Origin: a virus
Direction: 5' to 3' (one strand)
Virus record (IMG/VR): IMGVR_UViG_3300033183_000232
Location: 1 to 39,754 of that record
Length of the DNA stretch: 39,754 bases
The position numbers and the translations under genes are program-made. The notes under the pieces were generated by a model. That model had not been told where the DNA came from and did no database searches. It saw nothing but the letters and a program-made list of their open reading frames with translations. Positions 3 to 15,030 of the stretch are shown here, in pieces; the stretch's first letter is position 1; each line of letters begins with the position of its first letter.

Positions 3-128
3 GGGCTGCTGCAGTCAGGAGAGGAGGAAGCTGCGTATGGGTTAGTTATATCATCACTAGGTGCTGTAAGTCAACACCTTTTTATGGACTTAGTTAATGA
101 TTTTTTGATTGACGGGTGTGCAAAGTAG
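3..128 (+). other. Possible 3' end of a plus-strand gene entering from the left
   Basis: An open frame runs from the window edge to a TAG at 126-128 and would encode about 41 residues of ordinary protein composition (ending LIDGCAK). A plus-strand intrinsic terminator at 458-493 would suit plus-strand transcription entering from the left. Against it, a good minus-strand promoter (45-74) lies inside the frame. I do not recognise the peptide. Confidence 0.2.
45..74 (-). promoter_or_regulatory. Minus-strand sigma70-like promoter with CTAGGTGCTGT element
   Basis: On the minus strand, TTGACT (69-74) is followed by an 18 bp spacer and TATAAC (45-50). The spacer contains the recurrent element (57-67, CTAGGTGCTGT on the plus strand). 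It would transcribe leftward out of the window. The target gene is not visible. Confidence 0.55.
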
Positions 129-149
129 CTGTATACTAACGTAGTGGTT

Positions 150-158
150 CCCCCCCCC
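150..158. repeat. Run of nine C
   Basis: A homopolymer of nine C lies between the possible left gene and the DUF1127 gene. No function is evident. It is a likely spot for length variation or sequencing error. Confidence 0.6.
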
Positions 159-219
159 TATATACCCTATAATAGGATACATAGCTAAGGTTCCCCTTGC
201 TATGCTATAGCCGAAATGA

Positions 220-375
220 TCAACGGCTATGCTTCCACACAGCATCCTTAATCTCTGATCTAGAGATGCCCATGTCATTCAACTGCTTATCAGACAAACG
301 CATCAACTCTTGCTCAACAAGATAGTTCGCACGTTTCTGTAGGTATGACTCAAAATAACGTAGGATACGTTCCAT
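220..375 (-). CDS. Small DUF1127-family protein (51 aa)
   Basis: The minus strand has an ATG at 373-375 preceded by GGAG seven bases upstream, and stops at 220-222. The 51-residue product is basic at its N-terminus (MERILRYFESYLQKR). Residues about 27-41 carry the DUF1127 core LSDKQLNDMGISRSE. DUF1127 proteins are short alphaproteobacterial and enterobacterial proteins; those studied have been linked to RNA metabolism and stress or nutrient responses. In a phage, a host-mimic RNA regulator is an inference. The gene has its own TATAAT-type promoter. The match rests on reading the motif by eye, but it is a close one. Confidence 0.75.
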   Translation of the reverse strand: MERILRYFESYLQKRANYLVEQELMRLSDKQLNDMGISRSEIKDAVWKHSR

Positions 376-411
376 AATAGTTCTCCATCAATGTAGGGGT
401 TATAATGGGGT

Positions 412-440
412 ATTATAACACCACCTAGCTAAGAGAAGAA
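412..440 (-). promoter_or_regulatory. Promoter of the DUF1127 gene
   Basis: On the minus strand a perfect TATAAT (412-417) lies about 37 bases before the DUF1127 start. The position expected for -35 reads TTCTTC, a poor match. Immediately upstream of the -10 sits CTAGGTGGTGT (418-428), a one-base variant of the recurrent CTAGGTGCTGT element. Confidence 0.5.
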
Positions 441-457
441 CTAACAAGATCGAATAG

Positions 458-493
458 CCGCTATGCACTATCCTGCATGGCGGTTTTTTCTTT
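458..493 (+). terminator. Plus-strand intrinsic terminator overlapping the end of the endonuclease gene
   Basis: A 10 bp stem (458-467 with 474-483, one G-U pair) is followed by a T-run (TTTTTTCTTT, 484-493) on the plus strand. No confident plus-strand gene lies to its left in the window, so it may stop transcription entering from outside. Confidence 0.65.
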
Positions 494-865
494 ATGGGCT
501 AACAGGTAATCTATGGCCTTTTGCATTACCTCAATATCGTCACCAAACCTACCTAGGCCAGAATTGCAGTTACTGCACAGAAACCCACGGAATGTATTCG
601 TCTCGTGGCAATGATCTAATCGCCATGGAGTCAGTCTTTTCGAAGTTTTACCTCCGAAATTAACAGGTAACTCATCTTCAGACTTACCACAAATGTCACA
701 ACGATGATCTATTGGATAAGGATTAGCCTTCTTTAAATGATAAAGTGTCTTTTGATACTCACGGCTACAATTAGCGCAGTAGGTAGAAGTCACGTTATCA
801 AAAAACTTAACTTCCCTACTGGTTAGTCCACATTTAGGGCAGGTCTTATAGGCATCCTCAGTCAT
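461..865 (-). CDS. Endonuclease VII-like (recombination endonuclease) HNH nuclease
   Basis: The 134-residue product has the endonuclease VII layout. An N-terminal zinc-binding CPKC (about residue 9) and CANC pair is followed by CDIC, then the catalytic DHCHETNTFRGFLCSNCN (about residues 84-101) and GLGRFGDD. Phage T4 gp49 is the prototype; it cleaves Holliday junctions and branched DNA before packaging. The start at 863-865 gives MTEDAYKTC and overlaps the upstream stop by a few bases, so translation is probably coupled. An in-frame upstream start at 889 lies inside the previous gene and is less likely. A role as a free-standing HNH homing-type nuclease cannot be excluded. Confidence 0.8.
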   Translation of the reverse strand: MTEDAYKTCPKCGLTSREVKFFDNVTSTYCANCSREYQKTLYHLKKANPYPIDHRCDICGKSEDELPVNFGGKTSKRLTPWRLDHCHETNTFRGFLCSNCNSGLGRFGDDIEVMQKAIDYLLAHKEKTAMQDSA

Positions 866-1175
866 CAATATCAAACAGACTATTAACAACCGAAGAACTG
901 TCTTCTATCAGCACAGCCTTCTCACGCATCCTAGCAGCCATCCTGCTAAACTCATGAGCCAAACAATACAGCTTCTGATAACCAGTAACGTCACCATGAT
1001 ACTCAATCAGTGACTCTACTACGCCTTCGAAGTTCACAAAGACCTCTACCGGGTCTTCATCATCATCATTGTAGATGATTGCTACGACACTGCATTCACC
1101 ATCAGCATCGATCTCGAAGTCCACATCCACATGGATAGGCACTCCTAGGACAATGTCCTGTCCGTATTCACTCAT
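858..1175 (-). CDS. Hypothetical acidic protein (105 aa)
   Basis: The frame opens with an ATG at 1173-1175 (MSEYGQDIVLG); a TTG six bases upstream is less likely. The product is strongly acidic (IDADGE, YNDDDEDP and the C-terminal FDIDD), with a helical-looking second half. I recognise no family. It is the first gene behind the promoter at 1220-1248 and its end overlaps the endonuclease VII-like gene, so the two form an operon. Small acidic phage proteins are often DNA mimics or inhibitors, but nothing here shows that specifically. Confidence 0.6.
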   Translation of the reverse strand: MSEYGQDIVLGVPIHVDVDFEIDADGECSVVAIIYNDDDEDPVEVFVNFEGVVESLIEYHGDVTGYQKLYCLAHEFSRMAARMREKAVLIEDSSSVVNSLFDIDD

Positions 1176-1219
1176 AACCAATCTGGGGCTATAGTCGCAG
1201 GCCGAAGCACTGTGGTATC

Positions 1220-1248
1220 ATAATACCTACAGCACCTAACTAGGTCAA
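1220..1248 (-). promoter_or_regulatory. Minus-strand sigma70-like promoter with embedded operator-like element
   Basis: TTGACC (1243-1248), a 17 bp spacer and TATTAT (1220-1225) lie on the minus strand, 45 bases before the 858-1175 gene. The spacer contains TTAGGTGCTGTAGG, a copy of the recurrent element. Both hexamers and the spacing are near consensus. Confidence 0.7.
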
Positions 1249-1803
1249 CAGTAAACTGCACCAATCAGTTTACATTTTGATCACACCCAAATTTTCCCTA
1301 GGCGTTAGGGCGTTTACGGATTTGCATCCTGAGTCCACTAGGGGAGGGCCATGCAGGAGGCCATTTACGGGTCTAAAAATCCAATCTCTGGTCAGGGTTA
1401 TACACGCTAACGGTATAGGGGGCCATGGCACTCGCCCCCGCCCCTATGCCATAGGCCTAGACCTAGCAAAATATAATGGTTTCAATGGTTTAGCGGTTAA
1501 ATGCTGCAATAAAATAATAAGCTGATACCTAACAGGTCGCAGCACAAAGCCCGCAAAAGCCTTTAAAATATACCCCTACCCCCTATGCTGTGGGGCTATA
1601 TCTGTGGGAAAAATAAAAGCCTAGGCAAAAGATAGCCCTGTGAAGCCCTCAGAAAGCCGTGGGCGGGCCTTGGCGATTTCGGGCCATAGGATAGCGGGGC
1701 CGCGTGATGCACGTTATAGCGCCATCCTGTGCCTTCCCTAGGGCTTCCCCTATTGCCGCCCCTTGTGGCCTTTCTGTGCGTCTCTCAGGCTATGCTATAG
1801 CCC
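1249..1803. other. About 550 bases with no supported gene
   Basis: No open frame here has a plausible start and composition; the plus-strand frame 1277-1525 lacks a ribosome site and looks random. The stretch is unusually rich in CTAG, CCTA and TAGGG words and in short palindromes around CCTAGG and TAGGCCTA. GCTATGCTATAGCC occurs near 1790-1803 and again near 199-212. A replication origin, a structured RNA or decayed coding sequence are all possible. I see no single convincing signal. Confidence 0.4.
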
Positions 1804-1834
1804 AAAAGAAAACCCCCGCCGATTAGGGCAGGGG
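1804..1834 (-). terminator. Minus-strand intrinsic terminator
   Basis: On the minus strand an 8 bp G+C stem (1827-1834 with 1813-1820, one G-U pair) with a 6-base loop is followed by TTTTCTTTT. It lies just past the end of the 1861-2046 gene and would end that transcript. Confidence 0.8.
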
Positions 1835-1860
1835 CTAAGGCTTAGGGCTAGGTCTAAGGG

Positions 1861-2046
1861 CTAAGGCTTGGGGCTTTGGTCTAGGTTGATCCTGACAATA
1901 TCAACGGCATCGTCATAATCACCGTCATACGTCTTTATATGCCCCTCGCCTCGCTTTGCCTTGCGGTAGGCATCCGCTTCATTTTCAGCCTCGACCCTGT
2001 AGATGTCGCAAGACGTATAACTTCGGGTTACTTCAAAAAAGGGCAT
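1861..2046 (-). CDS. Hypothetical protein (61 aa)
   Basis: The start at 2044-2046 (MPFFEVTRSYTSCDIYRVEA) is preferred because the preceding gene stops at 2048-2050 and AGGGGG-type purines lie just upstream. The pattern of FEVTRSYTSCDIYRVEAENEADAYRKA resembles small phage proteins with a beta hairpin followed by an E-A-E-A helix, but no function is assigned to these. It is the last gene of a run of short minus-strand genes and is followed by the terminator at 1804-1834. Confidence 0.6.
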   Translation of the reverse strand: MPFFEVTRSYTSCDIYRVEAENEADAYRKAKRGEGHIKTYDGDYDDAVDIVRINLDQSPKP

Positions 2047-2047
2047 C

Positions 2048-2218
2048 CTATCGCCCCCCGTCAATCTGCAGCGGTATCATGATCATCACCAACATAAGCA
2101 CAAAGCAAATCAGCAAAGCGCAGATTGCAATGGGCAGGATATGGGCAAAGGTTAGGGCCACCATAGCGAAGGCAAAAAAGCCCGCAGCGCAGCCTAGGAA
2201 AGTTAGAAGATACAACAT
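2048..2218 (-). CDS. Small two-helix membrane protein (56 aa)
   Basis: ATG at 2216-2218 overlaps the TGA of the upstream gene (TGATG) and the frame stops at 2048-2050. The 56 residues are almost all hydrophobic. One membrane segment spans about residues 2-24 (MLYLLTFLGCAAGFFAF) and a second about 26-50 (HILPIAICALLICFVLMLV). The tail is short and polar (QIDGGR). The coupled start and perfect operon fit support a real gene. It could be holin-like or an inner-membrane accessory protein; the sequence does not decide. Confidence 0.65.
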   Translation of the reverse strand: MLYLLTFLGCAAGFFAFAMVALTFAHILPIAICALLICFVLMLVMIMIPLQIDGGR

Positions 2219-2505
2219 CAAACCGACTCCCCTAGATCCATTTTAACCCCTGTGCAGGCTTCCACGCATTTGGCCGCTATCTCTTGCCAGTAGTCATTCA
2301 ATTCTAGGCACATGGCGCGATTAACTTTCGCAATATGTTGGCGCAATTCTTGGGCCGTCATCATATCGCCCTGCTCTTTGCAAAACTGTTGGCTTTCCAA
2401 AACGTGTTCGAAAAGAATTCCCCAATGCATTTTGGTTTTTCCACTTAGGCGGGGCTGTTTTCCTGGATGGCGAATAAAGCACGAAAACACTTCGTTATTA
2501 GTCAT
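2218..2505 (-). CDS. Hypothetical protein (95 aa)
   Basis: The start at 2503-2505 (MTNNEVFSCFIRHPG) has AAAGG eight bases upstream, inside the recurring CCTAACTGAAAGG leader. The C-terminal two thirds look alpha-helical (AQELRQHIAKVNRAMCLELN). It contains four cysteines but no clear metal motif. It is first in an operon with the membrane protein and the 1861-2046 gene. I do not recognise it. Confidence 0.6.
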   Translation of the reverse strand: MTNNEVFSCFIRHPGKQPRLSGKTKMHWGILFEHVLESQQFCKEQGDMMTAQELRQHIAKVNRAMCLELNDYWQEIAAKCVEACTGVKMDLGESV

Positions 2506-2513
2506 CTTTTAAT

Positions 2514-2526
2514 CCTTTCAGTTAGG
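2514..2526 (-). repeat. Recurring leader CCTAACTGAAAGG, copy 1
   Basis: Thirteen identical bases occur just before minus-strand genes here, at 4204-4216 and at 5159-5171. Each copy contains the ribosome site GAAAGG and so provides the translation start of its gene. A partial copy (AACTGAAAG) precedes the 2839-3225 gene. Confidence 0.7.
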
Positions 2527-2558
2527 TTTGCGGCCTGTGGTCAATCAGGCCTAGGCCC

Positions 2559-2587
2559 TTAGTAAATCAATTTGGTGCTGTAGTAAA
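2559..2587 (-). promoter_or_regulatory. Minus-strand promoter candidate with GGTGCTGT element
   Basis: TTTACT (2582-2587), a 17 bp spacer and TACTAA (2559-2564) lie on the minus strand ahead of the 2218-2505 gene. The spacer again carries the element core ACAGCACC. Seventeen bases around the -35 (2581-2597) are repeated at 4272-4288. Confidence 0.5.
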
Positions 2588-2603
2588 GCATTTTATTAGC
2601 GCA

Positions 2604-2633
2604 ATAAAAAAGCCCCCACGAAAGGCAGGGGCT
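2604..2633 (-). terminator. Minus-strand intrinsic terminator
   Basis: The minus strand reads AGCCCCTGCC, a short loop, then TGGGGGCT and TTTTTATT. It lies just after the end of the 2657-2839 gene and separates that operon from the 2218-2505 promoter. Confidence 0.8.
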
Positions 2634-2656
2634 TTGGTCAATTCTCTCAATGGCCT

Positions 2657-2839
2657 TCACCACTGAATGCTAAGATGGTTGCCATCAGGCGGCACTGAAA
2701 CCCTGTCACCAATGGCCTTGAAGAATTCAGTAGACGTAGGGTTAGGGTCATCATCTGCTAACCACCATTGCCCCTGATCATCGCGGCGGGCGATAGTCCA
2801 AGGCCCGTGTGGCAATTGCACAAAGTAAAAAATATTCAT
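2657..2839 (-). CDS. Hypothetical protein (60 aa)
   Basis: ATG at 2837-2839 overlaps the upstream stop (TGATG). The product MNIFYFVQLPHGPWTIAR is rich in tryptophan and acidic residues (QWWLADDDP) and ends HLSIQW. It looks like a compact beta protein. No family is recognised. Confidence 0.6.
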   Translation of the reverse strand: MNIFYFVQLPHGPWTIARRDDQGQWWLADDDPNPTSTEFFKAIGDRVSVPPDGNHLSIQW

Positions 2840-3225
2840 CAATCTACTTTGCCCCCTAGCTGTTCAATCGCCCTGTCTATGCCGTTCATATAATCGACAC
2901 ATTGCAGCACATTTTGAAATTCAGGCGTTCCGCAGCTATAGGCGTTGATCAGCTCAAAATGGTTATCGGCCAAACCGAATTGATAGCGCAAATCACGGCG
3001 GTAATTCTGCAAGGCTTCAAGGGCTGTTATGGGCTTGCCTATGCTTTCCGCCTTTTCTGCGATTTCAGCGTTTAGCCTGTCCAAATAGCTTTGGGCATTT
3101 TCTAGATAGCGTTCCCGCAAGGTTAGCCCGCTTTCGGGGTTTTCTTGGGTTTCTTCAACGGCCCAAAGTTCTAGGGCTTCAAGGGTTTGGTCAATGATAG
3201 CGTCTTCGCTTTTTTCGTAATCCAT
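2839..3225 (-). CDS. Hypothetical helical protein (128 aa)
   Basis: The start at 3223-3225 (MDYEKSEDAIIDQTLEAL) follows GAAAG at a spacing of about ten bases. The protein is acidic and mostly helical, with heptad-like stretches around residues 35-70 (RERYLENAQSYLDRLNAEIA). I do not recognise the family. It is coupled to the 2657-2839 gene and follows the small membrane protein at 3240-3341, so it belongs to the same operon as the DUF932 gene. Confidence 0.6.
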   Translation of the reverse strand: MDYEKSEDAIIDQTLEALELWAVEETQENPESGLTLRERYLENAQSYLDRLNAEIAEKAESIGKPITALEALQNYRRDLRYQFGLADNHFELINAYSCGTPEFQNVLQCVDYMNGIDRAIEQLGGKVD

Positions 3226-3239
3226 GGGTCAGGGTTCTT

Positions 3240-3341
3240 TCAGTTATAGCCCAAGGCATGGGCGGCAATTAAGAAAAGGTAGGGGATAGCGAAAACCGCT
3301 ATCGCCCCGATTAAATCGCCTAGCAAATCACGCAATCGCAT
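3240..3341 (-). CDS. Very small membrane protein (33 aa)
   Basis: ATG at 3339-3341 overlaps the end of the DUF932 frame by 14 bases. The product MRLRDLLGDLIGAIAVFAIP continues into one clear hydrophobic helix to about residue 28 and ends ALGYN. The positive N-terminus fits an N-in single-span protein. It is supported by the overlap and the membrane segment only. Confidence 0.45.
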   Translation of the reverse strand: MRLRDLLGDLIGAIAVFAIPYLFLIAAHALGYN

Positions 3342-4195
3342 CGGCCAAATCCCACAGGTTGCGATTGATCCGCACGATCTCAGACAGGGAAGCCACGGCC
3401 TTTGCTTGGCGCAATGTGCCATAGGGCTTGCGGTCAGTATAAGACAGGATAGAAACCCCGCCCCTGATCAAGCTTTCCTGCACCCGATTGAAAACCCGCC
3501 ATAGGTTAGGCCCCCTGTCCTCATAGCGGCGGCTTTGCAGCATATCCATTACGGTGTAACGGCTTGCAAAAGCCCCCCGCAATTCGCCCTGATATTCGCG
3601 GCCATGTTCGCTATCGTTAGGGTCAAAATCCCACCGCAAGCTTGCGGCTTTCAAGGTGAAAGCTTTGGCCTGTGTCAGGTCAATCTCCCGCTCTTTCATG
3701 TTTTCGGCTCGCTCTAATAGTTCGGGCAGGGCTTGCGCCTGTTCAATCATCATGTCCGCGAAGCTATCGGCGGTTAGGCGGCTATGGCGCAGCTTTGCGC
3801 TAAAGCCTTCCCCTGCAACAATTCCGTTGCTGCAAACAAAGCGGAAAATTCCCGCGTATAGGCGCAGGCTCGATTTGCCGTTGTGCGAATTATATAGCAG
3901 AATTTCGGGGCTTTCGTGGCCATTGTGCGAGAAAGCGGCAGTTGGCTTAAATGCAATCATGTGATCCGCGAAAGGCAATTGCGCGGCCTTGCACAGGCTT
4001 TTGGATTGCCCGCACAGGGGCAAAGCCGTGATCCGCCAAAATGTCGATTGCCTGTGCGGTAGATACAAAGCCGTATCTTTCCGACAGTTCAGGGCTTGCG
4101 TGGCCTGTGAAAGCGGCGGGGCAATCTTGCTGCAAGGTTTCGCGGCTAAGTTCCGAATAGTTGCCATTGCGGCTGTAGATCAAATCAAAGGGCAT
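3328..4195 (-). pseudogene. DUF932 family gene broken by a frameshift
   Basis: Two overlapping frames together make one DUF932 protein. The first frame starts at 4193-4195 (MPFDLIYSRNGNYSELSR) and carries the N-terminal signature SERYGFVSTAQAIDILADHG followed by FAPVRAIQ. The second supplies FADHMIAFKPTAAF, PEILLYNSHNGKSSLRLYAG and FRFVCSNGIVAGEGF through to the stop at 3328. The switch needs a +1 shift, best placed at four A (minus strand) at 3999-4002; removing one A restores continuous homology. The family is common on phages and plasmids, with no firmly known function. The break may be a real mutation, a sequencing error or, less likely, programmed frameshifting. Confidence 0.8.
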
Positions 4196-4203
4196 TTTTG
4201 TTT

Positions 4204-4216
4204 CCTTTCAGTTAGG
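4204..4216 (-). repeat. Recurring leader CCTAACTGAAAGG, copy 2
   Basis: This is identical to the copies at 2514-2526 and 5159-5171. It provides the GAAAGG ribosome site nine bases before the DUF932 start. Confidence 0.7.
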
Positions 4217-4271
4217 TTTCACAAGGGGCGGTCAATCCCCTTGGGTTAGTTAGTGCCACAGTTAAATGCGT

Positions 4272-4288
4272 TAGTAAAGCATTTTATT
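4272..4288. repeat. 17-base repeat of 2581-2597
   Basis: TAGTAAAGCATTTTATT occurs identically here and at 2581-2597. Both copies lie in leader regions of minus-strand operons. On the minus strand each gives TTTACT, usable as a -35. The downstream sequence here (CTGTGGCACTAACTAA) only loosely resembles the recurrent operator element. Confidence 0.6.
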
Positions 4289-4365
4289 GCGACAGTTAGG
4301 CTAGGTGGTGAAATACCCACGCCCAAACAGTGACAAAGCCCACAGCGTAATAAATCGCCCCCATG

Positions 4366-5148
4366 TTATGCGGCCCCCTGTGCTACTAGATCAGCCTTGC
4401 GGGTTCTAAAGCCATGGGCAGGAAAGCCGACAATTACCTTGCGGCTTTGCCGTTGGCACAGTTGGCAGGCCTTGCAATTGGTTTCGCTGTAGGTGGCAGG
4501 GCAAACCGCAATGGCGCGGCCTTGCGGGGTTTCATGCTTTAGCCCCGCCATCCGTTCCCGATATTCCGCAAGGGTTTCTGTCCATTCCCCCTTGTGGTTT
4601 TTGCGTTCATATTCTTGGGGCAAAACAGTGACCACAGGCCCCGCCCCTGTTTCGGCTAGGCGGTCAGCGTGGGCAGGGTTGTTTCCTGAGAGATTAACAG
4701 TGAAGCCCGCGCGGTTTGCGGCGGCTATGCTTTCCCTGTTGGCGCGGTTTTCGATAGGGTCAAAATGGGTATATGTGAAACCCCGCTTGCCTTTGTTGGC
4801 CATGGCCAAATCAATCAGCGCGGCGTGATCTATGGTTTCGCTATCGGTAGGGTCAGGGATTAAATCCCCCGCTTGATTGTGCCGCCACAGTTGGCCATCG
4901 GGTAGGGCTTCAATCTGATTTAGGAACAGGTCAAAAGCTTGCCCCGCTTTCTTTTCTGTTACCTTTTTCCAAAAGATAACCAACGGCCCGCCACCTGCAT
5001 AACAACCTGCATCTTTCAAGGGGCAGGCATCGGGGCAGGTTGCGGCGCTTGAAGTAGAGACAGGAATAGGCCCCACCTTGGCATTGCGGCTTTTCAAGGT
5101 CAGCGCCACGAAAATAGCGGTTTCGGTTTTGGTCATATCAAAGGGCAT
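4366..5148 (-). CDS. Cysteine-rich conserved phage/plasmid protein (260 aa)
   Basis: The start at 5146-5148 (MPFDMTKTETAIF) follows a GAAAGG leader ten bases upstream. Residues about 26-53 read GPIPVSTSSAATCPDACPLK then DAGCYAGGGP, a cysteine cluster (CPDACP, GCY). A second cluster lies near the C-terminus (CPATYSETNCKACQLCQRQ). I remember this arrangement from unassigned phage and plasmid proteins and cannot give a proven function; the two clusters suggest a bound metal. The gene is the first of the minus-strand operon behind the promoter at 5190-5220 with its paired palindromes. Confidence 0.7.
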   Translation of the reverse strand: MPFDMTKTETAIFVALTLKSRNAKVGPIPVSTSSAATCPDACPLKDAGCYAGGGPLVIFWKKVTEKKAGQAFDLFLNQIEALPDGQLWRHNQAGDLIPDPTDSETIDHAALIDLAMANKGKRGFTYTHFDPIENRANRESIAAANRAGFTVNLSGNNPAHADRLAETGAGPVVTVLPQEYERKNHKGEWTETLAEYRERMAGLKHETPQGRAIAVCPATYSETNCKACQLCQRQSRKVIVGFPAHGFRTRKADLVAQGAA

Positions 5149-5335: not shown

Positions 5336-5380
5336 TACACATGAGGTGTTATTTGAGTTGACGCGCCAGTAAAATTTCAA
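5336..5380. repeat. Imperfect 40-base direct repeat, copy A
   Basis: TGAGGTG, a less conserved part, then TTGACGCGCCAGTAAAA (5358-5374) and TTCAA occur here and again at 5624-5669. The two copies bracket the regulator gene at 5377-5577. Confidence 0.75.
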
Positions 5381-5577
5381 TCTTGGCTTGGCCAGTCTTC
5401 TGGCCTGTATCCTGCTAGATAAGCCTTCAGCAGCCTGATCGATACCTCACCCAAGGGCTGAGTGTTGTTCTCTATCTTGCTTATGTAGGTCTTGCCTGTC
5501 AGCCCCATGACCTCAGCTAACTGCGTCTGCGTCAGTCCAAGTTGCTTGCGGGCTTGCTTTACTTCATCACCTGTCAT
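5377..5577 (-). CDS. Small XRE-type helix-turn-helix regulator (66 aa)
   Basis: Residues about 5-55 form an HTH_3/XRE domain: VKQARKQLGLTQTQLAEVMG followed by TGKTYISKIENN. The rest is a short helix and tail (LAGYRPEDWPSQD), so there is no separate oligomerisation or peptidase domain as in lambda CI. The ATG at 5575-5577 lies only about ten bases from a TATACT -10, so the mRNA may be leaderless or nearly so. With an integrase nearby it is a good candidate for a lysogeny or cassette regulator. Its site could be any of the nearby palindromes; the sequence does not say which. Confidence 0.85.
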   Translation of the reverse strand: MTGDEVKQARKQLGLTQTQLAEVMGLTGKTYISKIENNTQPLGEVSIRLLKAYLAGYRPEDWPSQD

Positions 5578-5622: not shown

Positions 5623-5623
5623 T

Positions 5624-5669
5624 CATATGTGAGGTGCTATCTCGTTTGACGCGCCAGTAAAAACTTCAA
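5624..5669. repeat. Imperfect 40-base direct repeat, copy B
   Basis: This partner of 5336-5380 has the identical 17-base core TTGACGCGCCAGTAAAA (5646-5662) and the conserved TGAGGTG and TTCAA flanks. Confidence 0.75.
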
Positions 5670-5742
5670 CTATTGGTTTGTCATATTTACCAATTCACTG
5701 TTTTGTGACCCCACTCAGCAATTTTTTCTTGACTGCCTCTAA

Positions 5743-5791
5743 CTAGGTGCTGTTTGTATCCCTTGACGGTTTGTCTCTTCTAGAACATAAT
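5743..5791 (+). promoter_or_regulatory. Plus-strand promoter with CTAGGTGCTGT element
   Basis: TTGACG (5763-5768), a 17 bp spacer and CATAAT (5786-5791) precede the 5819 gene. The recurrent element CTAGGTGCTGT lies at 5743-5753, just upstream of the -35. A second TTGACT (5729-5734) precedes the element but has no good -10. Confidence 0.65.
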
Positions 5792-5818: not shown

Positions 5819-6010
5819 ATGATTCTGACTGCACAGCAGGCTTTGGAAGTCGGTGAAGCTTTGTTGGATGCCGCCAAGGATGCATCACGATATGGCAAAG
5901 ACCATGCTGTGGTTACCATCTGCGGTGGCGATGTGGCGGTAGCAATGAACCTTGACGAATATATGACCGAACTTGGCTATGAGCCAATTATAACCGTTAA
6001 ATCAGCTTGA
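5819..6010 (+). CDS. Hypothetical protein (63 aa)
   Basis: ATG at 5819 has GGAGG at ideal spacing; the longer frame from 5747 would start upstream of the promoter and is rejected. The product MILTAQQALEVGEALLDAAK has an N-terminal helix followed by a beta-rich part (HAVVTICGGDVAVAMN). It is the first rightward gene next to the regulator, in the position of a cro-like or antirepressor gene, but it has no visible DNA-binding motif. A strong terminator follows. Confidence 0.65.
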   Translation: MILTAQQALEVGEALLDAAKDASRYGKDHAVVTICGGDVAVAMNLDEYMTELGYEPIITVKSA

Positions 6011-6106: not shown

Positions 6107-6191
6107 TAGTTGGGCAGTCGTGGACAGGGAGGAAGTTCCACTAAGAGAAACCTAACGCACCTACCAAAGTGCTGCAAGTGTTTTTTTATGA

Positions 6192-6221
6192 TTGACATCT
6201 ACTAAGTGCTGTTTCTATGCT
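6192..6221 (+). promoter_or_regulatory. Integrase promoter with embedded CTAAGTGCTGT
   Basis: TTGACA (6192-6197), an 18 bp spacer and TATGCT (6216-6221) lie 36 bases before the integrase start. The spacer holds a perfect CTAAGTGCTGT (6202-6212), so a protein bound there would block RNA polymerase. Confidence 0.75.
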
Positions 6222-6256
6222 CATAACTAGTTTGGGTTATGAGACTGGAGGCCACT

Positions 6257-7333
6257 ATGGCTAAGATAAAATACTTGGAGCAGCGCCTACGCGCTGATGG
6301 AACCCCTTATTGGGCCTACAATCCACCTGCTGCAGTTAAGGCACTTGTTGAGAATGCTGCCTTCATCAGCTTCGACAATCGCTTAGATGCAGAGCATCAC
6401 GCCCGCTACGTCAATCAACTCTATGACGATGCAAAGCGGGATCGTGCAGGCAAGGTCTACATCGATCTAGGCACAGTGCGTGGCCTGATCAGCACCTACA
6501 GACAGACCAACGCATGGACATCCCTGCGGCCTAACACCCACCGCACCTACTTGATGCTGTTCGAGAAGGCGATGGAGATCAGGCTAGGGGAATCCCCCAT
6601 TACCTTCGGTGAGATGCAGGCTGTGCAGGTCAAGCCAATGCATGCAGAGCAGTTGTATCATTATCTGAAAGAGAATGTGTCTGAGCATAGAGCCAATCAC
6701 ACGGTCAAAGTGTTACGCCGTGTATGGTCAATCGCTACTAAGAAAGGCTTGGCCCGTATCAACCCATTCGCACAGATGGGTCTGCGGGCTTTGCCTGACC
6801 GTGTTGTGCTGTGGGAACCAGAACAGGTTCAGAAGTTCATAGAGACTGCAGATGATCAGGGATACTGGTCTGTCGGAACATTGGCTCTGCTTTGCTATGA
6901 CCTTTGTCAACGTCCGGGCGATATGCGTCAGCTTCGGTGGTCTAACTTTGATGGTGAGGTCTTCGACTTCGTCCAAGAGAAGACCCGTGAGCGGGTTACC
7001 ATCCCTGCATCCCCACGCATTCTGAAGCGCCTGCATGGTATCAATGGTGAAGCGAATGACTTCATCATCAAGTATGAGCCAACAGGCAAGCCATTCACCC
7101 GCTTTGATTACTACAAGCTTGCTGCGCGTATCCGCAGCACTGCAGGCCTGCCTTCTCACCTACAGCTACGCGATCTGCGCCGCACTGGAGCCACAGAGAT
7201 GGCCGAAGCAGGGGTTACTGAAGACGAATTGCGGTCAGTGACTGGCCACAAATCCCGTGGGGTTCTGAACACCTACGTTCGCCCCACCAAGAAACTTGCC
7301 GCTCATGGCATGATGAAGAGGTTTGCACAATGA
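6257..7333 (+). CDS. int: Tyrosine recombinase / phage integrase
   Basis: The 358-residue product has an N-terminal arm-binding and core-binding region, then the catalytic domain. Box I arginine lies in CQRPGDMRQLRW (about residue 219). Box II reads LRDLRRTGATEMAEAG (about 304-320); the usual first histidine is an arginine here, and the second arginine is kept. TGHKSRG follows, and the nucleophile tyrosine is in NTYVRPT (about 340). The start at 6257 has GGAGG five bases upstream; an ATG at 6239 lacks one. Integrases of this type insert phage DNA at a tRNA 3' end. The tRNA-like segment at 9228-9265 is the likely attP, about 2 kb downstream rather than adjacent. Confidence 0.93.
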   Translation: MAKIKYLEQRLRADGTPYWAYNPPAAVKALVENAAFISFDNRLDAEHHARYVNQLYDDAKRDRAGKVYIDLGTVRGLISTYRQTNAWTSLRPNTHRTYLMLFEKAMEIRLGESPITFGEMQAVQVKPMHAEQLYHYLKENVSEHRANHTVKVLRRVWSIATKKGLARINPFAQMGLRALPDRVVLWEPEQVQKFIETADDQGYWSVGTLALLCYDLCQRPGDMRQLRWSNFDGEVFDFVQEKTRERVTIPASPRILKRLHGINGEANDFIIKYEPTGKPFTRFDYYKLAARIRSTAGLPSHLQLRDLRRTGATEMAEAGVTEDELRSVTGHKSRGVLNTYVRPTKKLAAHGMMKRFAQ

Positions 7334-7709: not shown

Positions 7710-7863
7710 ACGAGAGTGGTTCTATAATGCCGCCCGTGATTGGTATGAGGGGCCTCCAGTTATAGAGGTTCGTGATGGGCAGGAATACATTATTCGTATT
7801 CCACACATGGAATATTACCACGGAACCACAAACATCCCAGAAGTGAAAAGGTCTAAGAAATGA
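7702..7863 (+). CDS. Hypothetical protein (53 aa)
   Basis: ATG at 7702 follows AAGG and overlaps the end of the preceding gene; its TGA overlaps the thyX start (ATGA). The product begins MTKREWFYNAARDWYEG and ends VKRSKK. It is rich in aromatic residues and has no recognised domain. Coupling on both sides supports it as real. Confidence 0.6.
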   Translation: MTKREWFYNAARDWYEGPPVIEVRDGQEYIIRIPHMEYYHGTTNIPEVKRSKK

Positions 7864-8603
7864 GTAAGATTGAAGTAACCTATATCGATCACATGGGTGA
7901 TGACCTGTCAGTCGTTAATGCGGCACGGGTGTCGTTTGGTAAGAAGAGTGAATTTGTAGACGGTGAAATCAAAGAAGACGAAGTGGGGCCGTATATGGAA
8001 ATGGTTCTGTCTAATAAAGACAAGAAGCTGATCCGCTATCTAGCCAAGCACAAGCATCTGTCACCATTCGGTCATGCCTTTGCATCATTCCATGTCAAAG
8101 CACCTATCTTCGTAGCACGACAGCTAGTGAAGCATAAGTTCTTGCGGTGGAATGAGATCAGCAGACGCTATGTAGATGAAGAGCCTGAGTTCTATGTGCC
8201 AGATGTTTGGCGGGGCCGTAGTGCTGACAAGAAGCAAGGGTCTGATGGTGTAGTTAATCTAGACGCTATCAATTCTGATGGCGATCCATACGAGGGCCGC
8301 TTCGGTGAAGGCACTATGAATGAGTCTATAGAGCATGGCTTAGAGTTCCTTCTGAAAGACTACAAACTGTTGCTTCAAGCAGGCGTAGCCCCCGAACAAG
8401 CCCGTATGGTTCTCCCACAGTCCACCATGACAGAGTGGTATTGGTCTGGGTCTTTGGATGCGTTTGCAGCGATGTGTCAGCTACGGTGTGCATCAGATAC
8501 TCAATATGAGTCACAAATCGTAGCCAATCAGATCAGTGAACATATGGCTAAACTGTTCCCCGTGTCATGGGAAGCATTGATGGAGAATAACCATGCACAA
8601 TGA
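7860..8603 (+). CDS. thyX: Flavin-dependent thymidylate synthase
   Basis: ThyX makes dTMP from dUMP with FAD, NADPH and methylene-tetrahydrofolate. The 247-residue product has VNAARVSFGK near the N-terminus, HLSPFGHAFASFHVKAPIF and then VARQLVKHKFLRWNEISRRY (about residues 84-103). That segment holds the ThyX motif R-H-R-x7-S, here with conservative changes to KHK-x7-S (about residues 90-100). A later segment, GVAPEQARMVLPQSTMTEW, also matches the family. The gene starts by ATGA overlap and ends overlapping the next frame. It supplies thymidine for phage DNA together with the RNR and MazG-like enzymes downstream. Confidence 0.92.
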   Translation: MSKIEVTYIDHMGDDLSVVNAARVSFGKKSEFVDGEIKEDEVGPYMEMVLSNKDKKLIRYLAKHKHLSPFGHAFASFHVKAPIFVARQLVKHKFLRWNEISRRYVDEEPEFYVPDVWRGRSADKKQGSDGVVNLDAINSDGDPYEGRFGEGTMNESIEHGLEFLLKDYKLLLQAGVAPEQARMVLPQSTMTEWYWSGSLDAFAAMCQLRCASDTQYESQIVANQISEHMAKLFPVSWEALMENNHAQ

Positions 8604-9227: not shown

Positions 9228-9265
9228 TGGTTGCGGGGGCAGGATTTGAACCTGCGGCCTTCAGG
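9228..9265 (-). other. Candidate attP: 3' portion of an initiator tRNA-fMet
   Basis: Read on the minus strand, the segment gives the 3' side of an anticodon stem (CCTGAAGG), a T arm with GCAGGTTCAAATCCTGC, an acceptor 3' strand CCCCGCA and ACCA. From memory this equals the last 37-38 bases of alphaproteobacterial tRNA-fMet. The 5' half is absent, so it is not a working tRNA. A tRNA 3' end carried in a phage beside an integrase module is the hallmark of an attP core: integration would rebuild the host gene. Identity with a host gene could not be tested here. Confidence 0.78.
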
Positions 9266-9327
9266 GTCGTGTCAGATCACTATAAAATCAATGACTTAGA
9301 AGGCAGTTGGTGTTGAAAACCTCATAA

Positions 9328-9338
9328 CTAAGTGCTGT
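9328..9338 (+). promoter_or_regulatory. CTAAGTGCTGT element
   Basis: A perfect copy of the recurrent element lies in the 9266-9417 control region. A TTGAAA at 9313-9318 has no good -10 at standard spacing, so this copy may act as an auxiliary operator for the promoter at 9349-9377. Confidence 0.6.
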
Positions 9339-9348: not shown

Positions 9349-9377
9349 TTGACGAGACATCTAACTAAGTGTATCCT
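9349..9377 (+). promoter_or_regulatory. Promoter of the primase operon
   Basis: TTGACG (9349-9354), 17 bp and TATCCT (9372-9377) precede the 9418 gene. The spacer ends in CTAACTAAGTG, the first half of the recurrent element, fused to the -10. Confidence 0.7.
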
Positions 9378-10466: not shown

Positions 10467-10670
10467 ATGAAAGCCCGTGCAATCGTAGTCATCGACTACA
10501 CGATAGAGGGCGGTTTCAAGGAAGCTGCTGAAGAACAAGCGAAACTAGAAGAGCAAATCGCTGCGATGGTCAAAGGTAACAAGAGCGTTGTCTTCCATGC
10601 AGTAGATATGAGGGAACGCCGTGGGGATGGACAACCAGACCTCAAGAGCATGAAGTTTCGCTCCTACTAA
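10467..10670 (+). CDS. Conserved small phage protein (67 aa)
   Basis: A strong AAAGGAG lies eight bases before the ATG. The product MKARAIVVIDYTIEGGFKEA has a beta strand, a helix (EEQAKLEEQIAAMVKGN) and the end HAVDMRERRGDGQPDLKSMK. I remember similar short proteins from many phage replication regions, always without function. A terminator follows, so it closes the primase operon. Confidence 0.65.
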   Translation: MKARAIVVIDYTIEGGFKEAAEEQAKLEEQIAAMVKGNKSVVFHAVDMRERRGDGQPDLKSMKFRSY

Positions 10671-10695
10671 TTTCTGAGTCGCTTCAATGATTTAG

Positions 10696-10725
10696 CCTCT
10701 GCCATCCGGCGGGGGTTATTTTTTG
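10696..10725 (+). terminator. Terminator of the primase operon
   Basis: CCTCTGCC-ATCC-GGCGGGGG forms an 8 bp stem with two G-U pairs, followed by TTATTTTTTG. It lies directly ahead of the helicase promoter. Confidence 0.75.
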
Positions 10726-10727
10726 TC

Positions 10728-10758
10728 TTGACTGCACCCTACTACAGCACCTTATAGT
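10728..10758 (+). promoter_or_regulatory. Helicase-operon promoter with inverted element ACAGCACC
   Basis: TTGACT (10728-10733), 19 bp and TATAGT (10753-10758). The element is present in reverse (ACAGCACCTTA, 10744-10754) and runs into the -10. This promoter precedes the chain helicase to polymerase. Confidence 0.6.
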
Positions 10759-10792
10759 GTCCATTGTTGAGGCACCAATAAGGGAGACTGTC

Positions 10793-12010
10793 GTGCAGAC
10801 ATCACTATTAAACTCCCTGCTATCAGCCGACTTCTATGAGCAGAACAAGAGCAGGCTAAAAGAGACCTTGTTCGATGATCGTTGCTCTGAAGTATTCAAG
10901 CTGATCGCAGAAGCACATTCCAAATACAGCCATGACCTAACCGTCAGTGACATTCTGGCGATTTGGAAGGCAAAGCATCCTGCAGCAACCAATACTGACC
11001 GCACCCAGTTCACTGATCTGGTAGCGGCTGTGGCTGATGCAGACCCATTAAGCCCAGACATTGCATCTGACGTTATTGAGAACCTGTGGAAGCAGGAGAC
11101 AGGGCGTGAGATTGCAAATCTGGGCATTTCTATTTCTGAAGGCCGCTACGAGGCCATGGATATGCTCAAGCGCCTACTGGACAAGGTAGGTGAGCATTAC
11201 GTTTCAGATGATTTCGGTGAGCCTGTCACTGATGACATCTACACTCTTCTGGCTGAGGCATCTGATGATGCGCGGTGGAAATTCAACATCGAAACACTGT
11301 CACGCAATGTCTACGGCATTGGCCCTAGTGAGTTCGGCATTGTCTTCGCCCGCCCTGAGACAGGTAAGACAGCATTTGTGGTAAGCCTAGCTGCTGCCCC
11401 TAATGGTTTCTGTCAGCAAGGCGCAAAGGTTCTTTACCTTGGCAATGAAGAAGCAGCCCGCCGCACTAAGCTTCGTGCAGTGCAAGCATGGGCAGGTCTG
11501 ACCAAGGCAGAAGTTCATGATAACCCTGACCTAGCCATGACCCGCTATCTGGCGATCCGTGATCGTCTGGTGATGAAGGACATCCAAGAGAAGGATTTGG
11601 CTTGGGTTGATGCCTATATCGGCTACATCAAGCCGGATGTCGTGATCATTGACCAATTGGATAAGGTCAACCTCACAGGATCATTCAATGCATCACATGA
11701 GCGTCTTCGTGAGTTGTATCGGCAGGCCCGTGAGATGGCCAAGCGCCATGAGGTAGCCCTGATCGGCCTATCGCAGGCTTCTGCAGATGCTGAGGGCCGC
11801 ACCCGCCTAGACTTTTCCATGATGGAAGGCAGTAAGACAGGTAAAGCCGCTGAGGCTGACCTGATCATCGGTATCGGCAAGCATTCATCGCAGGACGATG
11901 ACGAGCCTAACACCACCCGCTTCCTGAACGTCTCAAAGAACAAACTGAGCGGTTACCACGGCGTGATCGCCTGCAACATCGAACCGGAGATCAGCCGCTA
12001 TGTCGTTTAA
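10793..12010 (+). CDS. Replicative DNA helicase, DnaB / T7 gp4 C-terminal type
   Basis: The 405-residue product has an N-terminal helical domain (LLNSLLSADFYEQNKSRLKE) and a RecA-like motor. The Walker A is FARPETGKTAF (about residues 184-194), and Walker B is DVVIIDQLDK (about 282-291). LSQASADAEGR and SKTGKAAEADLIIGI match DnaB-family motifs. It unwinds DNA ahead of the family-A polymerase and works with the separate primase. A GTG at 10757 lies inside the promoter -10 and cannot be used by that transcript; GTG at 10793 has AGGGAG six bases upstream and is chosen. The end overlaps the next gene. Confidence 0.88.
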   Translation: MQTSLLNSLLSADFYEQNKSRLKETLFDDRCSEVFKLIAEAHSKYSHDLTVSDILAIWKAKHPAATNTDRTQFTDLVAAVADADPLSPDIASDVIENLWKQETGREIANLGISISEGRYEAMDMLKRLLDKVGEHYVSDDFGEPVTDDIYTLLAEASDDARWKFNIETLSRNVYGIGPSEFGIVFARPETGKTAFVVSLAAAPNGFCQQGAKVLYLGNEEAARRTKLRAVQAWAGLTKAEVHDNPDLAMTRYLAIRDRLVMKDIQEKDLAWVDAYIGYIKPDVVIIDQLDKVNLTGSFNASHERLRELYRQAREMAKRHEVALIGLSQASADAEGRTRLDFSMMEGSKTGKAAEADLIIGIGKHSSQDDDEPNTTRFLNVSKNKLSGYHGVIACNIEPEISRYVV

Positions 12011-12242
12011 GTTGAAAGCAAGCCAATTGGTAATCGATTTGCACAGCGAAGAGGCGGATCGGTTTGTATTAGCAGCTTTGGTTGAGGCCAAAGAGAGCGT
12101 CACTGAAAGTATCGGTGATACGCTCCAGTATATCGCCCGCAATGCTGAGGTTCCGAACTTCTATGTCGAAGACCTAGAGGTGAACTTCCGTGTGTTGGAC
12201 GCACTGGATGAAGTGATCAAATACTTCGGGGGTGATCTATGA
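12000..12242 (+). CDS. Hypothetical helical protein (80 aa)
   Basis: ATG overlaps the helicase stop by 11 bases. The product MSFKLKASQLVIDLHSEEAD is followed by an acidic helical stretch (LAALVEAKESVTESIGDTLQ). No domain is recognised. Its place between helicase and nuclease suggests a replication accessory role. Confidence 0.6.
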   Translation: MSFKLKASQLVIDLHSEEADRFVLAALVEAKESVTESIGDTLQYIARNAEVPNFYVEDLEVNFRVLDALDEVIKYFGGDL

Positions 12243-12760
12243 ACCTCTTGATCAAACTCACCCGTCCAGAGATCAGCCTATGCAAGCAGGCTGCATCCAT
12301 GCGGTGGCAGCTATCCCGTGTTGCAGGTGTCTTCAATCAGCGCAAAGACAAGCGGTCTGATGAAGAGATCGATTACCTTGGCATTCGTGCTGAAGCCGCT
12401 GTCGCTAAGGCATATGGCCTTGAACATCACCCTACAATGATTGGCATCGATGACGGTGCTGATCTGTTCGATGGCGACACAACCATCGATGTTAAAAGCA
12501 CATGGCATTCTGAAGGCCGATTGCTGATCAAATCCAAAGAAGCTGCCCGTGCAGATGTCTTCGTGTTGGTCACAGACACGCCTCAGGACGATGTGATGAA
12601 CATCCTTGGGTGGACTACCCGCCAGAAGTTCTTGGATGAAGCAGAAGAGACTGACTTCGACAATCGTGGCGTTTGCTTCACGATGAAGCAGGATCGTCTC
12701 TATCAGCCCGCCCAGTTGTGGCTGCACCTCACGAAGAAAAAGTATGGGGCTGCAGCATGA
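12239..12760 (+). CDS. PD-(D/E)XK nuclease-like protein (173 aa)
   Basis: ATGA overlap at the start. The catalytic core of the restriction-endonuclease fold is visible: E52 in LGIRAEAAVAKAYG, D75 in GADLFDG, and D84-V-K86 in TIDVKST. The C-terminal half has beta-rich FVLVTDTP and NILGWTT. The family usually cuts DNA as repair, resolvase or host-degrading nucleases. Substrate cannot be told from sequence. This is one of three PD-(D/E)XK candidates in the operon. Confidence 0.7.
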   Translation: MNLLIKLTRPEISLCKQAASMRWQLSRVAGVFNQRKDKRSDEEIDYLGIRAEAAVAKAYGLEHHPTMIGIDDGADLFDGDTTIDVKSTWHSEGRLLIKSKEAARADVFVLVTDTPQDDVMNILGWTTRQKFLDEAEETDFDNRGVCFTMKQDRLYQPAQLWLHLTKKKYGAAA

Positions 12761-12912
12761 TCAACGAGACAGACCTACTGGAATACTACGAACTCCTTGA
12801 GAAGAAAAAAGAGGAGTGGGAACAGAACCGTCAACCCCTGCTGATGCGGCAAATCGAACTGCTGCAGGAATTGATCAAAATTCAATCCAAGCTATTGGGG
12901 GTGCGGTTGTGA
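12757..12912 (+). CDS. Small coiled-coil-like protein (51 aa)
   Basis: ATGA overlap with the upstream gene; the stop overlaps the polymerase start (GTGA). Nearly the whole product is a charged leucine-rich helix (LLEYYELLEKKKEEWEQNR, LLQELIKIQSKLLG). It may bind a partner such as the polymerase encoded next; this is inference. Confidence 0.6.
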   Translation: MINETDLLEYYELLEKKKEEWEQNRQPLLMRQIELLQELIKIQSKLLGVRL

Positions 12913-15020
12913 AACGACTAGTTCTGGATTTGGAAACAACCGTCCAGAAGCTGAACGACAAAACAGACAACAGCCCCTTTAATCCAGACAATTGGTGCGT
13001 TTCAGCACATTTCGGATGGATCGGTTGGGATACCGTTGATGACGTTCAGTCTCTGGTCTTCAATCACAATCAAAAGCAATGCCCTGATCCGATAGAGGCG
13101 CTTCAGAACGCCCTCTCTCAGGCTGACATGCTTATTGCCCACAATGCTAAGTTTGACTGCCTGTGGCTTCAGGAGATGGGGCTTACCCTACCGCCTAAAA
13201 TCTACTGCACCATGATCGGTGAGTATATTCTGGCCAAAGGGCAACGTCAGGAACTGTCCCTGAAGGCAACTGCAGAACGCCGAAACGTAACCCGCAAGAA
13301 ATCAGACCTTGTGGACGAGATGTTCAAGAAGGGCATCGGCTTTGAGGCCATGCCCCTTGAGACTGTCTTGGAATATGCGGAAGCAGACGTTGTATCGTGC
13401 GGGGAAATCTATCTGGCGCAGCTAGAGGACTTCCACAAAGACGAAAACAAGAGCCTGAACAGCATCGTTGATCTTATGAACGAGATGCTTGTGTTCCTGT
13501 TGGAGATCGAAACCAACGGCATTCATATCGACATGGACGCTTTGGATGATGTGGAGCGTGAGTTCACGGCTGAGAAGCAGCAGCTTGAGCGTGACCTAAA
13601 CCGCATTGTCGAAGAGGTTATGGGCGATACGCCTATCAATCTGAATAGCGGGGCAGACATGACAGCGGTGGTCTACAGCCGCCGTGTTAAGGCTCGTGAT
13701 CTGCATCAGAGCGTTTTCAATATCGGTATGCAGCCCAATGGACGGCCCCTACGCCGCCCTCGCATGAACCAAAAAGAGTTCAACACTGCAGTCCGCACCA
13801 CAACTGATGTGGTTTATCGCACTGTGGCTGTTTGCTGCACGGTTTGTGATGGCCATGGCAAAGTATTCCGCACCAAGAAGAACGGTGAGAAATACGCCCG
13901 CCCCAACATCTGCAAGAACTGCAATGGTGCAGGGGCAATCTATGAAGACACAGGTAAAGTGGCAGGGCTGAAGCTGAAGCCACTGAATGTCGAATATGCC
14001 ACCATCAATGGCTTTGCTACCGACAAGAACACCATTAAAGCCCTGATCAATCAGGCACGAGAAAAAGGTAATCTGCAGGCTGAAGAGTTTCTGACAAAGA
14101 TCAGTAGGCTCAATGCAGTCAGCACTTACCTCGACAGTTTCGTCCAAGGTATCCGCACTTGGACGCGGGCAGACGGCCTGCTGCATACAAATATGAACCA
14201 GACCATTGCAGCAACTGGCCGACTATCAAGCAGTAACCCGAACTTCCAGAACCAACCAAAGCGTGGCTTTCCGATACGCAAGGCGGTGACGAGCCGCTTC
14301 CCTAACGGTTGCATCGTAGAGGCCGACTTTAGTGGTCTGGAATTTCGGGTAGCGGGCGAGGTGTCTCGTGACCCTCAAATCATTGAAGACATCCTGAATG
14401 GCAAAGATGTTCACAAGCAGACTGCATCGATCATCAATCGGTGTAAGCCTGAGGATGTGGACAAGGATATGCGCCAAGGCGCAAAGGCCTTCACCTTTGC
14501 CCCACTCTACGGTGGCATGGGGGCAAACGAACCCCCGCACATTCAGGAATACTTCAAGCAGTTCTTCGTGATCTACAAAGGACTGGCTGAATATCAGAAG
14601 AGGTTAATGGATGGTGTCCTGAAAAACGGCATCGTTCAGACCCCTTCTGGTAGGCAGTATTACTGGCCAAATGTTCGCAGGCTGAAGAATGGCCGCACAA
14701 CGAACGCCACCCAGATCGTGAACTACCCGATCCAAGGCTTTGCCACAGGCGATCTGGTGCCATTGGCCTGCATCCGTGCTTATCACCGTTTCAAGGCCGC
14801 AGGGCTGAAATCCCTACTGATCCTTACCGTCCATGACAGCATTGTGGTGGATTGCGTTGAGGATGAACTGGATCAGGTCTGCGACATTCTGAAGGAAAGC
14901 ATGATGGGCGTGTCAGACGAGGCGAAAAAGCGGTGGGATTATACCTTCGCTCTGCCTTTGGACATCGAAATCAGCAAAGGGCCAAATTGGTTAGATCAGG
15001 CGGAATTAGTGCTTGACTAA
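12909..15020 (+). CDS. Family-A DNA polymerase with 3'-5' exonuclease and DnaJ-type zinc centre
   Basis: The 703-residue product starts at GTG 12909, overlapping the upstream stop. The exonuclease begins at once (LVLDLETT, D7 and E9; HNAKFDCLWLQEMG). Polymerase motifs follow: A, EADFSGLEFRVAGEVS (about 471-486); B, RQGAKAFTFAPLYGG (about 521-536); C, LTVHDSIVVDC (about 638-648), where the usual HDE is HDS. Inserted at about 307-342 are CCTVCDGHG and CKNCNGAG, two CxxCxGxG units as in the DnaJ zinc domain. A polymerase with this insertion is the reported mark of HMO-2011-type phages. It copies the phage genome with the adjacent helicase and primase. Confidence 0.92.
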   Translation: MKRLVLDLETTVQKLNDKTDNSPFNPDNWCVSAHFGWIGWDTVDDVQSLVFNHNQKQCPDPIEALQNALSQADMLIAHNAKFDCLWLQEMGLTLPPKIYCTMIGEYILAKGQRQELSLKATAERRNVTRKKSDLVDEMFKKGIGFEAMPLETVLEYAEADVVSCGEIYLAQLEDFHKDENKSLNSIVDLMNEMLVFLLEIETNGIHIDMDALDDVEREFTAEKQQLERDLNRIVEEVMGDTPINLNSGADMTAVVYSRRVKARDLHQSVFNIGMQPNGRPLRRPRMNQKEFNTAVRTTTDVVYRTVAVCCTVCDGHGKVFRTKKNGEKYARPNICKNCNGAGAIYEDTGKVAGLKLKPLNVEYATINGFATDKNTIKALINQAREKGNLQAEEFLTKISRLNAVSTYLDSFVQGIRTWTRADGLLHTNMNQTIAATGRLSSSNPNFQNQPKRGFPIRKAVTSRFPNGCIVEADFSGLEFRVAGEVSRDPQIIEDILNGKDVHKQTASIINRCKPEDVDKDMRQGAKAFTFAPLYGGMGANEPPHIQEYFKQFFVIYKGLAEYQKRLMDGVLKNGIVQTPSGRQYYWPNVRRLKNGRTTNATQIVNYPIQGFATGDLVPLACIRAYHRFKAAGLKSLLILTVHDSIVVDCVEDELDQVCDILKESMMGVSDEAKKRWDYTFALPLDIEISKGPNWLDQAELVLD

Positions 15021-15030
15021 CAGCACTTAG
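15013..15030 (+). promoter_or_regulatory. TTGACT with adjoining ACAGCACTTAG element
   Basis: TTGACT (15013-15018) overlaps the polymerase stop and is followed by a perfect inverted copy of the recurrent element (15020-15030). I find no good -10 at 16-18 bp, so promoter activity for the 15077 gene is only possible. Confidence 0.45.

Follow-up and report, generated by a model that had tools for sequence, protein, structure and literature searches.

What does one short word do at so many promoters of a single phage? The linear IMG/VR virus record IMGVR_UViG_3300033183_000232, all 39,754 bases of which were analysed (the window), repeats the 11-mer CTARGTGCTGT at sites spread over 57-15030. The original prediction took this word for an operator-like element, by which a lysogeny repressor would switch the early genes of both strands together. 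The analysis supports an operator: the element is probably the binding site of a phage-encoded, sequence-specific DNA-binding protein, a repressor, whose recognition is specific to each phage.

The copies had been placed correctly throughout. Five are exact (57, 5743, 6202 and 9328 on the plus strand, 15020 on the minus strand), two have one mismatch (418 and 1229, both minus) and two have two mismatches (2571, plus, formerly listed as 2574, and 10744, minus); 9365-9371 is the half copy CTAAGTG. None of the seven copies with up to one mismatch falls inside a gene, in a window with 3.8 kb of intergenic DNA (an approximate total; the list of coding sequences behind both of the following tests was compiled manually from the table of open reading frames). 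A first-order Markov model of the intergenic DNA (1000 runs) gave a mean of 0.145 and a maximum of 3 such copies against the 7 found, and 0.006 exact copies against 5. With no preset motif, CTAGGTGCTGT was the top recurrent intergenic 11-mer (7 copies, up to one mismatch), while the top 11-mer of 100 second-order simulations reached maxima of 3-5. The motif is thus not equally frequent in genes or in random sequence; equal frequency was one of two outcomes that the original prediction had named as counting against it. When two mismatches are allowed over the whole window, 31 copies stand against 19.5 expected and the signal is nearly lost, so that weak copies require backing from relatives. 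TTGAY lies within 30 bp of all six intergenic (T)ARGTGCTGT sites (background 33%, p=0.0013) in a test with a cruder gene caller, which hid site 5743. In a de novo search the element was the second motif in the window, and its palindromic form the top motif in the related isolate CRP-212. The predicted promoters and operator-like copies are these:

57..67, plus strand: operator-like copy CTAGGTGCTGT, lying between the -35 and the -10 of a minus-strand promoter (TTGACT 74-69, 18 bp, TATAAC 50-45)
412..428, minus strand: operator-like CTAGGTGGTGT (418-428), directly adjoining the -10 TATAAT of a DUF1127 gene, from sequence and relatives
1220..1248, minus strand: promoter TTGACC-17-TATTAT with copy TTAGGTGCTGT (1229-1239) in its spacer, ahead of the gene at 858-1181
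2571..2581, plus strand: degenerate, weak copy TTTGGTGCTGT, upstream of the minus-strand gene 2218-2505
4301..4311, plus strand: degenerate, weak copy CTAGGTGGTGA, upstream of a DUF932 gene
5729..5791, plus strand: promoter region of the small gene 5819-6010, with TTGACT, CTAGGTGCTGT (5743-5753) and TTGACG-17-CATAAT
6158..6175, plus strand: extra imperfect inverted-repeat operator-like copy CACCTACCAAAGTGCTGC, ahead of the promoter of the integrase
6192..6221, plus strand: integrase promoter TTGACA-18-TATGCT with copy CTAAGTGCTGT (6202-6212) in its spacer
9328..9338, plus strand: operator-like CTAAGTGCTGT, ahead of the primase-operon promoter's -35, aligned with relatives
9349..9377, plus strand: primase-operon promoter TTGACG-17-TATCCT, its spacer containing inverted-repeat copy CATCTAACTAAGTG (9358-9371)
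10728..10758, plus strand: helicase promoter TTGACT-18/19-TTATAGT with copy 10744-10754 (minus) in its spacer
15013..15042, plus strand: promoter-like region between the DNA polymerase gene and an SSB-like gene, with copy 15020-15030 (minus)
15054..15063, minus strand: putative further copy TAGGTGGATT, in the SSB-like gene's leader, where CACYTA is present in several relatives as well

Promoter spacers hold the copies at 57 (18 bp), 1229 (17), 6202 (18), 9365 (the half copy, 17), 10744 (18-19) and 15020 (18, with a weak -10). Outside spacers, 418 touches its -10, and 5743 and 9328 each have a -35 shortly downstream. Copies 57, 10744 and 15020 are oriented opposite to their own promoters. For nearly all copies this geometry bears out a placement inside or beside TTGAC-type promoters on either strand and in both orientations. 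The lone weak copies at 2571 and 4301 may be chance. Transcription from the promoter at 57 is directed off the left edge of the window; its counterpart in the relative L138 (L163) leads into a small gene followed by minus-strand packaging genes, and the counterpart region in CRP-235 lies upstream of gp53 and the genes toward the terminase. By this synteny the promoter at 57 belongs to the late packaging and structural operon and so is probably not an early one. Because these counterparts precede the late operon, the element set is probably not purely early, and the description of its promoters as early holds for most of them but probably not for this one.

The element had been described as an 11-mer short of a perfect palindrome, with dyads in some copies. 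It is indeed imperfect, but the real unit is an inverted repeat, CACYTA-RY-TARGTG, of which the 11-mer is the stronger arm; in the window the good arm is TARGTGCTGT and the second arm is weaker. Matches to CACYTA-N0..3-TARGTG with up to two mismatches occur in the window at 1.93 per kb of intergenic and 0.27 per kb of coding DNA; gaps of 0-3 were tried, and the good copies have gaps of 2 and 1. Perfect copies with a 2-bp centre are found in CRP-212 (349, 25973, 48590), CRP-3 (46711), L184 (2212, 38496) and L139 (4481), at some of the sites of these phages rather than all. The tests of dyad, spelling and covariation were devised after the sequences had been inspected, and we chose the gap range, the mismatch limits, the word length of 11 bases and the lengths of the regions.

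To which phages should the element be compared? By its genes and their order the window phage is an HMO-2011-type roseophage with an integrase, related to CRP-3, CRP-212 and CRP-235. It is a marine, temperate phage. Its family A DNA polymerase (12816-15020) has two CXXCXGXG motifs (CTVCDGHG and CKNCNGAG), the mark of HMO-2011-type phages (PMC9038755). The order integrase, thyX, primase, helicase, polymerase is kept relative to the isolates, and the helicase is 52-59% identical to those of the Roseobacter phages CRP-235, CRP-212, CRP-738 and CRP-3. Two features bear on integration:

6239..7333, plus strand: tyrosine integrase, from a profile match
9228..9266, plus strand: candidate attP, conserved in relatives and resembling the 3′ end of a minus-strand tRNA gene

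ARAGORN found no whole tRNA; the integration site of CRP-3 is the 3′ end of a tRNA-Met gene (PMC6918029).

Across these relatives the element recurs at the promoters of the DUF1127 gene, the late operon, the integrase, the primase and the helicase and at the junction of the DNA polymerase and SSB-like genes. L128 is 92-95% identical to the window along most of its length and retains the copies at 1229 (which reads CTAGGTGCTGT there), 5743, 6202, 9328, 10744 and 15020. When viral contigs were scanned for TTGAC-N2..10-CTARGTGCTGT, only the L128 contig stood out among the matches listed; L128 apart, a rough estimate makes these matches mostly chance. The more distant L129 (about 74% identical) matches the window at 28 of 31 helicase-promoter bases against 36 of 66 around them, and after the polymerase gene at all ten bases of CAGCACTTAG against 40 of 62 around those. 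Where the window reads CTAAGTGCTGT at the primase promoter, the aligned sequence of L138, L130 and L132 is CTAAGTGGCGT or CTAAGTGGCAT. In the window, L138, CRP-3 and CRP-212 alike, the DUF1127 gene is preceded by an element touching a TATAAT-like -10. Among 34 non-redundant loci the polymerase/SSB-like junction has TTGAY and, a few bases on, the element or a visibly related sequence, with an exact CACYTA or TARGTG in 20 of the 34. HMO-2011, CRP-1, CRP-207 and HTVC033P have a TTGAC-type junction promoter but neither CACYTA nor TARGTG in it, and TARGTG shows no clear enrichment in their non-coding DNA (for CRP-207 just 332 non-coding bases with 2 sites were available, too few for judging enrichment). 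The integrases of HMO-2011, CRP-1 and CRP-207 belong to other subgroups, and HTVC033P has no annotated integrase in the stretch read. The claim of an operator-like element in an integrase-bearing phage is thereby strengthened, in that relatives share it at the same promoters and other close members of the group are without it. The DUF1127 gene itself (220-375), right behind its element-bearing promoter, is conserved in CRP-3, CRP-212, CRP-235, CRP-738, L138, L175 and L201.

The outer bases differ from phage to phage: GTGCTGT in the window, GTGGCGT in L138, GTGCG in CRP-3 and GTGTC in CRP-212. After intergenic TARGTG the window mostly continues with the two bases CT, L138 with GC, CRP-3 with CG and CRP-212 with TT or TC. 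Within a phage the spellings go together: the longest word shared by the SSB-like promoter spacer and the helicase promoter measured 8.26 in the phage's own pair and 6.40 with those of others (permutation p=0.0002; 19 representatives picked for dissimilar helicase-promoter sequence, kinship among them being partly controlled). One host strain, FZCC0040, yielded the isolates CRP-3, CRP-212 and CRP-235, yet their spellings differ, which favours a phage-encoded partner over a host factor.

How would such a site work? One arm, TARGTG with clade-specific outer bases (CTGT in the window), would pair with a weaker inverted CACYTA arm 1-2 bp off. Since the site lies in a 17-19 bp spacer or against the -35 or -10, a bound protein should exclude RNA polymerase from these sigma70-type promoters, and spacers of that length require no activator for realignment. 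Copies stand at nearly every early promoter of the left and right arms, at the integrase and, by synteny, at the late operon, so a single protein could keep the prophage silent and confer superinfection immunity; each phage group would recognise its own spelling. Protein binding, repression and the role in lysogeny are what we infer from these arrangements. Of the lysogeny repressor originally proposed, the operator-like element on both strands of an integrase phage stands, while the choice of lysogeny over a lytic role is the interpretive part. Going further, and tentatively, the integrase-bearing HMO-2011-type clade may be run by a genome-wide operator network whose regulator belongs to an unrecognised DNA-binding family, its recognition diversifying phage by phage into immunity groups.

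Two small genes in the window deserve attention as sources of a regulator:

5377..5577, minus strand: 66-residue HTH_3 (XRE-type) protein, candidate regulator of the window phage, from a profile match
5819..6010, plus strand: 63-residue protein, encoded immediately ahead of the integrase in many relatives, with a predicted alpha-beta-beta-beta fold

The 66-residue protein matches HTH_3 (E=1.2e-12), and its top PHROG is a transcriptional regulator. Its gene lies where the left and right arms diverge, with degenerate copies AGGTGTTAT and AGGTGCTAT on either side, and the protein is 98% retained in L128, where the element has the same spelling. Genome searches found HTH_3 above the cut-off in the window and L128 only; neither HTH_3 nor the closest PHROG was found by genome search in the element-bearing relatives of 47-53 kb, though in L138, which is about 3 kb short of the window, absence of HTH_3 is no proof. 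Among 63 small proteins of CRP-3, CRP-212 and CRP-235, HTH_3 was not among the 25 most frequent of 46 Pfam families; the PHROG scan likewise covered the 25 most frequent of 54 families, and a match with a single member could be hidden in either. One small protein of these three isolates matches HTH_23 (E=2e-4). The original prediction had proposed the 5377-5577 product as the regulator. It is a true HTH_3 protein and a plausible best single candidate in the window phage, but it cannot regulate the whole group, because HTH_3 was not found in the other carriers of the element. The 5819-6010 protein was rejected as an obvious DNA binder, though it may still bind DNA: its model (mean predicted local distance difference test score, pLDDT, 94.7) is not helix-turn-helix (HTH) and has no significant PDB match.

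If the 66-residue protein is nonetheless the lysogeny repressor of the window phage, binding these sites as a dimer, then the relatives would use non-homologous regulators. The profile matches, the position at the arm divergence, the retention in L128 and the flanking copies fit this possible but rather doubtful account; the failure to find it in other carriers and its shortness (no recognised second domain) do not, and a TARGTG core common to the phages is unexpected if each had recruited an unrelated protein. A regulator of the lytic phase, for early shut-off or temporal control in the manner of Cro and with no part in lysogeny, would explain why the late operon and the replication genes have sites ahead of them too and why no CI-like repressor was recognised. 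We consider it unlikely: all examined loci with an identified integrase region have integrases, and the four HMO-2011-type phages examined outside the clade, including HTVC033P, with no int gene annotated in the stretch read, have no element, yet three of those four have integrases. A host-encoded regulator would account for the failure to recognise a phage DNA-binding protein common to the carriers, but CRP-3, CRP-212, CRP-235 and CRP-207 share FZCC0040 and either differ in spelling or are without the element, which makes it quite improbable. An activator that binds the spacer as MerR does is suggested by sites between -35 and -10. MerR-type promoters have spacers of 19-20 bp, however, against mostly 17-18 bp, between good hexamers, in the window; scans not aimed at the MerR family recognised no such protein, and we give this idea very little credence. 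Chance or promoter composition might seem to suffice for two-mismatch counts just modestly above expectation, but is refuted for the whole set by the intergenic enrichment, the 34-locus junction, the covariation and the conservation in L129, and is scarcely conceivable.

Several results weigh against a phage-encoded repressor with a lysogenic role, even so. TTGAY is not above background near the sites of L138, CRP-3 and CRP-212, and TARGTG is not enriched in L173, L159 and CRP-738. Terminators and low-complexity words dominated the de novo searches of L138, CRP-235 and other relatives, where the element did not come first. In the 19 representatives the SSB-like spacer does not covary with the primase promoter (p=0.65). 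Genome searches, the Pfam and PHROG scans and two further scans of ten proteins each recognised no DNA-binding protein common to all carriers. Finally, the constant company of integrases comes from a survey in which integrase-less carriers were not sought systematically.

Does any described system look alike? The operators of lambda, 434 and P22 are dyads of 14-17 bp over promoters, bound by HTH-type dimers and clustered at two promoters beside the repressor gene, whereas the window sites are scattered over most transcription units and the only HTH_3 match is a protein of 66 residues. In phiC31 one repressor acts on conserved inverted repeats (CIRs) at many early promoters; these are similar as multi-promoter inverted repeats but differ in sequence and hosts. 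Cluster A mycobacteriophages such as L5 and Bxb1 have 20-30 asymmetric operators or stoperators of 13-14 bp, without dyad, oriented with transcription, mostly away from promoters and bound by a monomer, and their immunity specificity tracks the spelling of the site (PMC6550527, PMC9283540). The likeness lies in repressor-type sites scattered over the genome and in a consensus that differs between related groups, there subclusters. The sites of the window phage number some 8-12; they point both ways, have an inverted-repeat form and almost all stand at promoters. Since it departs from cluster A in asymmetry, in orientation with transcription and in location away from promoters, the element is not classed there. 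The L5-type repressor has an HTH and a stoperator domain, and the 66-residue protein is too short to contain both. Also close are CRP-3, CRP-212, CRP-235 and CRP-738 (PMC6918029, PMC9038755), of the same group and gene order, with related elements at the same promoters but each with its own outer bases. The word repressor is absent from the main text of both of those papers, titles and abstracts found for HMO-2011 with promoter concern other subjects only, and no published description of the element was found in a search that had subscription journals and preprints outside it. If the element is an operator, its regulator could be fished with spelling-matched DNA, promoters and immunity groups would be predictable from sequence, and mycobacteriophage-like immunity groups among abundant ocean phages would become testable.

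Other small proteins and a second repeat were noticed as well. Near the left-arm end, gp59 of CRP-3 (95 residues, L229:2076-2363) and its CRP-212 homologue look like winged helices by eye and have no Pfam or PHROG match; they are possible regulators for CRP-3 and CRP-212. The end of the L173 contig (G021:C1:33084-33164) has an HTH_3 match below the cut-off (E=6.7e-6). A 67-residue protein between primase and helicase (10467-10670) is strongly conserved in element-bearing relatives, including the motif ERRGD, and its structure model is of low confidence (mean pLDDT 72.8); HMO-2011, CRP-1 and HTVC033P have no annotated gene in that gap. A second repeated element, [CT]TGACG(T/C)(G/C)C..GT, forms a pair 240-290 bp apart on either side of the small gene that precedes the integrase in CRP-235, CRP-3, L184, L173, L175 (with a third match elsewhere) and L138; in the window the pair (5358-5370 and 5646-5658) surrounds the HTH gene instead.

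Bacterial genomes scanned with the helicase profile for prophages gave candidates, among which no relative was confirmed. At the DNA level the thyX gene (7860-8603) shares 87% identity with its counterpart in Roseobacter phage CRP-804; no other stretch of CRP-804 matched, which suggests gene exchange between phage groups.

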